Part shown: piece after piece, positions 48,837 through 50,252 of the stretch
Layout: every line of letters starts with the position of its first letter
How positions within the stretch are numbered: the stretch's first letter is position 1
NCBI GenBank assembly: GCA_015063085.1
Contig: SUTD01000001.1
Location: 124,001-188,000, forward strand
DNA length: 64,000 nucleotides
Reading direction: 5' to 3'
Source: Methanocorpusculum parvum
Lineage (GTDB): Archaea > Halobacteriota > Methanomicrobia > Methanomicrobiales > Methanocorpusculaceae
Position numbers and translations under genes: made by a program
Notes under the pieces: generated by a model
What the model was told of the DNA's origin: nothing
What the model saw: only the letters and a program-made list of their open reading frames with translations
The model's database searches: none

Positions 48837-49143
48837 AAGTATCTTTGTCAAAATTTACTTGATGAAAATAAAATACACTTGATTTACAAAAAGGATTAAA
48901 AGAAATAATGCGGATAAATCGCAGGTTTTAGAAACGAAGCGCGGATTTAGGGCAGATAGTTTTAATCCTATACGTAAATGTTTGCAAAATAAAATTGATG
49001 AAAGAAAAATAAAAATTGTAAAAACGCGCATTGAAGGAGAGGATTAGTGTGAGAGAGATGAAGAGCGTTATCAACCGCAGAGATAAATTGGTCAACAAAC
49101 TGCTGAGTAATTACAGAGAATAAAGAAAACAGAAAACTCACCT
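48837..49143. other. A/T-rich stretch without a supportable gene
   Basis: About 300 bases of low-complexity A/T-rich sequence between the pilin promoter and the first 187-bp repeat. A minus-strand open frame crosses it from the repeat (beginning MRITKRGVVRIGYPNTK), but most of it has no protein character. I see no RNA gene either. Confidence 0.5.
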
Positions 49144-49330
49144 CAAAACGAGGTGTCTTAGTGTTCGGGTAACCAATCCGAACAACACCACGCTTTGTAA
49201 TTCTCACTAAAAGAATAATCTAAGAATACAGCGTTAGCTGATGTATATAGATACAACCTTAAAGAATAAAAAATCTTGCAGAACTGTAAAACAAAAAGAT
49301 TAACTGAGAAAAACGGCAGGGTAATTTAGA
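49144..49330. repeat. 187-bp direct repeat, copy 1, with a conserved hairpin
   Basis: Nearly identical to 50065-50252. It begins CAAAACG-A/C-GGTGTC and ends near GTAATTTAG. It contains a two-tier stem: GGTGT (49152-49156) with ACACC (49185-49189), and TGTTCGG (49162-49168) with CCGAACA (49178-49184). On the minus strand a TATA-like TCTATATACAT lies at about 49242-49251, so a small RNA running down through the hairpin is possible. The direct repeats bracket the diverged peptide/RNA locus at 49.4-49.7 kb. Confidence 0.85.
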
Positions 49331-49439
49331 CATCAATCCAGAAACAAAACCCGCATCAACATATGGATTTATATCCAGAGAAAGTGAATCATAAGATGCC
49401 GGCCTCACCAGCCGAGTAAGATAAAAAGGAGGTGATAAT

Positions 49440-49529
49440 ATCACCCAGTTTATCATAGCAGCATTCACAGTTGCTGTTCTCATATCCAGAGAACTCAGGT
49501 TATGGTATCAGCTACTGATGAGAAAATAG
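49440..49529 (+). pseudogene. Hydrophobic-peptide gene with ATC in place of its start codon
   Basis: Thirty codons to the TAG at 49527-49529. Aligned without gaps to the peptides at 59129 and 60085, the ATC at 49440 falls exactly on their initiator Met, and SRELRLW matches their SREIREW/SREIRGW at residues 16-22. A very strong Shine-Dalgarno (AGGAGGTGAT, 49428-49436) lies just upstream but is half buried in the palindrome GGTGAT-AAT-ATCACC. Either an ATG mutated to ATC, or a non-standard start is used. An upstream hairpin CGGC-CTCACCA-GCCG (49400-49414) lies in the leader. Confidence 0.6.
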
Positions 49530-49610
49530 TGGGAGGTCAAACCCCCATTATTTTATACTCCTTCACCCGAGGGAAATTCCTATATACTTACACAACATAA
49601 GTATAACTTG

Positions 49611-49690
49611 CAAGATAAACTGGGTGGTATCCGGTTGAACAGGATGGTTACCTGTTCGAAGAAACCGGTTTCACCTTCTTGTTTCTTTTC
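49611..49690 (+). ncRNA. Putative antisense RNA of the 49.4-kb peptide locus
   Basis: A TATA box (TATATACT, 49581-49588) predicts a start near 49611. The first bases include GATAAACTGGGTG (49614-49626), perfectly complementary to CACCCAGTTTATC (49442-49454), the first codons of the peptide frame upstream. A two-tier hairpin follows: CCGGTT/AACCGG (49631-49636 with 49663-49668) enclosing GAACAGG/CCTGTTC with loop ATGGTTA. A T-rich end (49677-49689) could terminate it. Same layout as the RNAs at 59.3, 60.3 and 60.6 kb, in shortened form. Confidence 0.55.
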
Positions 49691-50007: not shown

Positions 50008-50064
50008 AATAGATGGAGTGGCAGACACAAAATAACAGAGAATGAAAAACCGTAAAACTTACCC

Positions 50065-50252
50065 CAAAACGCGGTGTCTTAGTGTTCGGGTAACCAATCC
50101 GAACAACACCACGCTTTGTAATTCTCACTAAAAGAATAATCTAAGAATACAGCGTAAGCTGATGTATATAGATACAACCTTAAAGAATAAAAAAATCTTG
50201 CAGAATTGTAAAACAAAAAGATTAACTGAGAAAAACGGCAGGATAATTTAGG
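50065..50252. repeat. 188-bp direct repeat, copy 2
   Basis: Second copy of the repeat at 49144-49330, differing at a handful of bases and one extra A in an A-run. The two-tier hairpin (50073-50110) is unchanged. The unit ends 43 bases before the stop of the transglutaminase-like gene, so it also marks the 3' end of that transcript. Confidence 0.85.

Follow-up and report, generated by a model that had tools for sequence, protein, structure and literature searches.

The window, the whole 64,000-nucleotide stretch of Methanocorpusculum parvum DNA analyzed here, derives from a genome of 1.4 Mb that is 80% complete. Near 49.4 kb it contains a toxin-like peptide gene with a putative AUC start codon, followed by a predicted small RNA (sRNA) gene, in which we assigned the following features.

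49368..49374, +: TATA-like box of the toxin mRNA (predicted promoter), TTTATAT; kept as GATTTATATACTT in the 27-locus alignment
49397..49418, +: mRNA leader hairpin, from the fold; loop CUCACCA at 49404-49410, proposed kissing partner of the sRNA loop
49428..49436, +: full Shine-Dalgarno (SD) sequence GGAGGUGAU, kept across the subfamily and written GGAGGTGAT at this locus
49440..49442, +: putative near-cognate AUC start codon; AUH at the homologous position in 23 loci
49440..49529 (including the stop TAG), +: toxin-like peptide ORF of 29 aa, from translation and pN/pS
49525..49552, +: hairpin overlapping the stop codon, then TTTTA; GTGGGAGGTCAAACCCCCATTATTTTA, with compensating changes in the alignment
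49580..49589, +: TATA-like box of the sRNA, CTATATACTT; conserved, and still present in the toxin-deleted relative G007:C5
49614..49630, +: 5' seed of the sRNA, predicted to pair with mRNA 49438-49454: 13 Watson-Crick bases, or 17 bp when G-U is allowed
49631..49668, +: two-tier sRNA hairpin; loop AUGGUUA at 49644-49650
49671..49680, +: sRNA tail, complementary to the SD at 49426-49435 in the cofold and like the 16S 3' end; consensus AUCACCUCCUUUU

Translation from the ATC at 49440 gives ITQFIIAAFTVAVLISRELRLWYQLLMRK and then a stop, and no in-frame ATG, GTG, or TTG lies upstream, where just KGGDN follows an in-frame stop. The SD GGAGGTGAT is 7 nt from the ATC, counted from GGAGG, and the 16S 3' end GGAUCACCUCCU was identified in genomes of the same genus. 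The hairpin at 49525-49552 with its TTTTA is likely the mRNA end, and the second transcript, the sRNA, is predicted to start near 49610-49614. Its covariance model, which includes this locus itself, matched 49628-49685 with 63.5 bits, and no Rfam 15 match at gathering score was found in the window.

The two-tier hairpin and the other elements listed in a preliminary description of this locus were all present. Among these, the hairpin GGTGAT-AAT-ATCACC exists here but is not conserved in other loci and is therefore taken to be incidental; it was rejected as a general SD-sequestering device, having been seen just here and in a 94% relative in G002. An upstream ORF in the leader (MPASPAE, then a stop) was likewise dropped, as it was not kept in the alignment.

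Besides, a direct repeat of ~190 bp occupies window positions 49140-49340 and 50050-50250. The minus strand of each copy has a TATA CTATATAC, a hairpin GTTCGGATTGGTTACCCGAAC, and then a second stem CACCTCGTTTTGAGGTG, and perhaps encodes a different small RNA; the sRNA covariance model gave no score on it, and a similar hairpin, GGATTGGTTACCC, occurs in G000:C21:8875. Tandem genes with a type IV pilin-like N terminus (DAVSPVIGVMLMLVVT), at 47.5 to 48.7 and 56.7 to 58.7 kb, flank the peptide/sRNA loci of the window.

The locus family and the predicted pairing of its small RNAs

DNA and peptide searches of 25 genomes of the genus recovered about 25 homologous loci, and a profile search added further ones, including loci in G006 and G009. 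The family genomes (G000, G002, G007, G018, G010, G023, G009, and G006) are Methanocorpusculum gut MAGs, and many copies are maintained per genome. Outside Methanocorpusculum, nothing convincing was found in 232 genomes of the order, and the class-level search covered the same number. Both the MAG status of the carriers and the narrow distribution, in one genus, count against the interpretation proposed below. A viral or mobile-element origin was rejected because neither an IMG/VR relative nor a PHROG match was found. The absence of nucleotide similarity reported previously holds between this locus and the two others of the window, at 59.1 and 60.1 kb, but many nucleotide relatives exist elsewhere.

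The loci share a common anatomy: a TATA, ~26 nt, a leader hairpin, GGAGGTGAT, the start, 28 to 30 codons, and a hairpin at the stop codon, followed by a second TATA, ~26 nt, and then the sRNA, consisting of the seed, a two-tier hairpin, and the tail TCACCTCCTTTT. The second promoter and the sRNA are thus conserved among relatives, and the sRNA TATA, ~26 nt upstream of the sRNA, is retained where the toxin has been deleted or displaced.

At the window locus, a perfect 13-base complement (GATAAACTGGGTG) at 49614-49626 matches 49442-49454. The preliminary description had placed it on codons 1 to 5; its exact span begins at the last base of codon 1 and ends with codon 5. When the 66-nt target was compared with 4,946 other 220-nt stretches of the window, the values averaged 6.4 and peaked at 10; 13 was never reached. 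With G-U pairs, the seed duplex reaches 17 bp (49438-49454 with 49614-49630). Indeed, throughout the family each sRNA can base-pair through its 5' end with codons 1 to 6 of its own neighbor. The longest perfect run averaged 12.9 in own pairs versus 4.7 in mismatched pairs (0 of 2,000 permutations as good), and the mean duplex energy was -26.3 for own pairs versus -11.9 for other pairs; the own partner was the best for 24 of the 25 loci, with none of 10,000 permutations as good. The complementarity rule suggested earlier is therefore correct and general, as permutation-tested across loci, and the pairs are orthogonal. In these loci, a predicted RNA of the kind required of a type I antitoxin is complementary to the toxin mRNA in a locus-specific manner, with permutation controls.

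Putative contacts beyond the seed, which like the paralogues and the sRNA-only remnants go beyond the preliminary description, were also observed. In the cofold of this locus, 10 bp between tail and SD and 17 bp between the seed and the start and codons 1 to 5 were predicted, with the sRNA hairpin extruded between them, at an energy of -68.7 kcal/mol versus -48.6 for the two RNAs alone. The sRNA hairpin itself covaries, with double changes in seven of nine consensus pairs. The sRNA loop and the leader-hairpin loop, both marked by hand, covary as well: 10 distinct loop pairs gave 5.3 versus 2.9 bp (0 of 20,000), including TAACTA/TAGTTA, TAATGA/TCATTA, TAACGA/TCGTTA, TAACAA/TTGTTA, and TTACCA/TGGTAA, and by reading, G009 has the pair TAACCA/TGGTTA. 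At the 49.4-kb locus itself, the leader and sRNA loops match over just 4 contiguous bases, which counts against a loop-loop contact there. The sRNA tail, which matches the SD, has the sequence of the 16S 3' end found in same-genus genomes. In the family-wide comparison without wobble pairs, tail-SD complementarity had no locus specificity, and this contact is therefore counted as conservation and not as covariation.

Loci with an sRNA and no intact toxin were found repeatedly. At the syntenic site in G007, the segment corresponding to window 49.05 to 49.58 kb is gone, including the toxin and its promoter, and the remaining G007:C5 locus keeps the TATA and the sRNA, with 99% identity over 140 nt. 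In total, about nine such sRNA loci were identified (G007:C5; G002:C17, C14, C49, and C54; G007:C14; G018:C9; and the broken G007:C21 and G000:C14), and G006:C225 is a further candidate. Conversely, no intact toxin without an sRNA was found among the evaluable members of the subfamily, from which G002:C62 and G002:C49:86 were left out since their toxin loci run off contig ends.

The TATA, seed, and hairpin are conserved in the stand-alone antitoxin-like sRNAs (G002:C17, C14, and C49; G007:C14:397; G018:C9:57705; and G006:C225). The orphan sRNAs of G002:C49 and G007:C14 have an identical seed, for which no other close target was found in those genomes. The broken copies G000:C14:125218 (L192) and G007:C21:4061 (L153) are a leader joined to the sRNA through an internal deletion and a peptide that has an in-frame stop and lacks an SD. 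In G002:C14 (L189), a diverged peptide, MDFVIFWTLVIGMFYGEIREWQKLLRKK, is encoded ~540 nt 5' of the sRNA hairpin, with a RelB-like gene following directly, and is possibly the end of a longer frame; it belongs to another subfamily and has no matching sRNA. The toxin and the sRNA of G002:C39 and G018:C3 are split by ~4.7 kb of DNA that includes two transposase-like ORFs, and 18 bp of pairing, two G-U included, is kept. For these split loci to be still functional, their sRNA would have to be made from a promoter of its own and act in trans.

These data bear on whether the peptide is a toxin. It could instead be a benign small membrane regulator whose synthesis is tuned by the neighboring sRNA, with the AUH start and the sRNA working alike. 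The peptide matched no known toxin family above the cutoff in Pfam, NCBIfam, and PADLOC models, which counts against the toxin reading, and the many copies maintained per genome would also suit a regulator. On the other hand, the subfamily has sRNA-only remnants without intact-toxin-only loci, each paralogue has a private sRNA, and the predicted control is tight and threefold, as is typical of toxin genes, and we consider the regulator improbable.

Reading frame and start codon

As described previously, the peptides of the 59.1- and 60.1-kb loci align without gaps to the frame from the ATC at 49440, the S and the W being residues 16 and 22. In a genome-wide search with the 59.1-kb peptide, the 49440 locus was recovered at an E value of 0.078, a match that is weak alone but confirmed by the family. 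The family peptides, of ~29 aa, consist of a hydrophobic half followed by S-x-E-[IL]-R-x-W...KK. Across 21 members, the Kyte-Doolittle mean of the N-terminal half is 1.7 to 3.3 and the net charge of the C-terminal part is +2 to +4; with its 29 aa, the peptide of this locus is of the small hydrophobic kind (<60 aa) known from type I systems.

It is conceivable that the frame is untranslated, the mRNA serving the sRNA as a noncoding partner or decoy and the peptides being similar through shared ancestry, as the lack of a standard start codon might suggest. Against this, S16, E18, R20, and W22 are invariant in 21 of 21 aligned, diverged members, and between-locus pN/pS is 0.48 in the peptide frame versus 1.08 and 1.10 in the other two, implying that the peptide frame alone is coding and under purifying selection. 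The SD spacing is 7 to 8 nt in nearly all family loci, and homologues in G006 have ATG, GTG, or TTG at the same place. We thus regard an untranslated frame as very improbable.

The homologous start codon is ATC in 10, ATA in 8, and ATT in 5 of 23 loci, and ATA, ATC, or ATT stands behind an identical SD in homologues from at least seven genomes of the genus. On a tree built without the start codon, neither the A nor the U changed, and the third base switched among A, C, and U no fewer than 11 times, equaling the count for the first position of codon 2. The diversity was 0.00/0.10/0.70 in codon 1 and 0.67/0.50/0.64 in codon 2. The rough probability of no G at the third base in 11 changes is 0.012, for a set that had been chosen as ATH loci. 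Four homologue groups, all behind an SD, are exceptions to AUH at normal spacing and count against the rule: G023:C157, with ACG at the start position; the C14/C37/C6 orthologues, with an ATG one codon upstream (ATG-ATA); G007:C6:96790, with ATA at unusual spacing; and three loci of G006, with the NTG codons mentioned above.

The preliminary description proposed that either ATG had mutated to ATC, disabling the toxin, or AUC initiates. A decaying remnant that has lost its ATG, with an sRNA conserved by recency, would account for ATC in place of ATG and has parallels in the broken copies (G007:C21 and G000:C14:125218), but it is scarcely credible for a locus with an intact, constrained frame, the same SD, and a matching sRNA, whose relatives carry the conserved frame and share ATA, ATC, or ATT in 23 loci without any change at A and U. 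As judged from these homologues, the ATC at 49440 is not a local mutation, and its conservation supports initiation at AUC.

A related ATG branch (59.1, 60.1, G000:C10, G023:C113, G004:C33, G007:C15, and G002:C54:22020) has an absent or partial SD. The family thus has two settings, a full SD with AUH or a weak SD with AUG, and we infer that they may yield similarly low output. The ATG branch (59.1 to 59.4 and 60.1 to 60.4 kb, and G004:C33 at 49.4 kb) seems to be built on the same plan, with a leader-hairpin loop facing an sRNA loop (GACCAAA/TTTGGTC in G004) and an sRNA that can pair with the start region; the 59.1- and 60.1-kb loci seem to add a second, covarying contact in the middle of the ORF (CTAAGAACA/GTGAGAAC).

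Near-cognate AUH starts, such as the AUU of bacterial infC, depend strongly on initiation fidelity factors. The starts described here resemble the infC AUU in having AU with a third-base mismatch and differ from it in that an entire archaeal paralogous family keeps AUA, AUC, or AUU. Bacterial IF3 reportedly requires Watson-Crick pairs at codon positions 1 and 2 and is laxer at the third (PMC10158994), and archaeal aIF1 is reported to destabilize initiation complexes on non-AUG mRNA (PMC6237735). The invariant AU and the free third base fit decoding by initiator tRNA.

A probable type I-like family in archaea

Taken together, the locus probably belongs to a multicopy archaeal type I-like toxin-antitoxin family that initiates at conserved near-cognate AUH codons and whose sRNA blocks the ribosome site. 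One transcript would carry the leader hairpin, the full-strength SD, and the AUC start of a 29-aa peptide with a hydrophobic N-terminal half and a cationic C-terminal half, presumably toxic; the nine-base pairing of the SD may be what makes the near-cognate AUC tolerable. The downstream promoter would produce the short sRNA, which may find its own mRNA through the loop-loop contact, its 5' end (on codons 1 to 5), and its 3' tail (on the SD). In the predicted complex, the sRNA hairpin is extruded and the entire ribosome-binding site is base-paired, so that translation would be blocked. The weak start codon probably holds leaky toxin synthesis low, and the variable first codons would give each paralogue a private antitoxin. 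We suggest only tentatively, and with some doubt, that the loci fire when initiation stringency falls (through aIF1 level or activity) or the sRNA is lost, the 16S-mimic tail otherwise keeping the site closed.

By anatomy, this arrangement would work like a bacterial type I system, membership of which requires toxicity of the peptide and its neutralization by the RNA. Like tisB/IstR-1, shoB/ohsC, zor/orz, and dinQ/agrB, it combines a small hydrophobic peptide with a nonoverlapping antisense sRNA that has its own promoter, here a predicted one, and short complementarity to the toxin mRNA (PMC4147584). Those loci are divergent and their sRNAs bind far upstream, at a standby site or in a long 5' untranslated region, whereas the sRNA of the present locus is encoded downstream, on the strand of the toxin gene, and would target the SD, the start, and codons 1 to 5; moreover, the promoters are archaeal, the start is near-cognate, and no sequence homology was detected. 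The Ibs/Sib loci of E. coli form a comparable multicopy repeat family of tiny peptides, there toxic; their antisense RNA covers the ribosome site and recognizes its target through two domains, of which one overlaps the coding region (PMC4147584). Sib is, however, encoded on the opposite strand with full overlap, whereas the sRNA described here comes from separate DNA and covaries with its target. In archaea, sRNA162 of Methanosarcina mazei acts on cis- and trans-encoded mRNAs with distinct domains, but the target identified for it codes for a transcription factor plus an unknown protein and not for a family of toxin-like peptides (PMC3510493).

A 2025 paper places all type I systems known until then in three bacterial phyla and adds the cyanobacteria (PMC12390103). 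The msoT1/msoA1 system of Microcystis is thus, as the present family would be, a recent extension of the type I range, although a bacterial one (PMC12390103). Full-text searches, which covered few subscription papers and whose negative outcome is not proof of absence, found no archaeal type I system in the literature.

Gene finders restricted to NUG starts would overlook genes of this kind. This family, in which selection seems to favor AUA, AUC, and AUU as start codons, would offer a direct handle on archaeal start-codon fidelity. If our interpretation is true, it would extend type I systems to archaea and provide an archaeal sRNA for which dozens of natural sRNA-target pairs covary.
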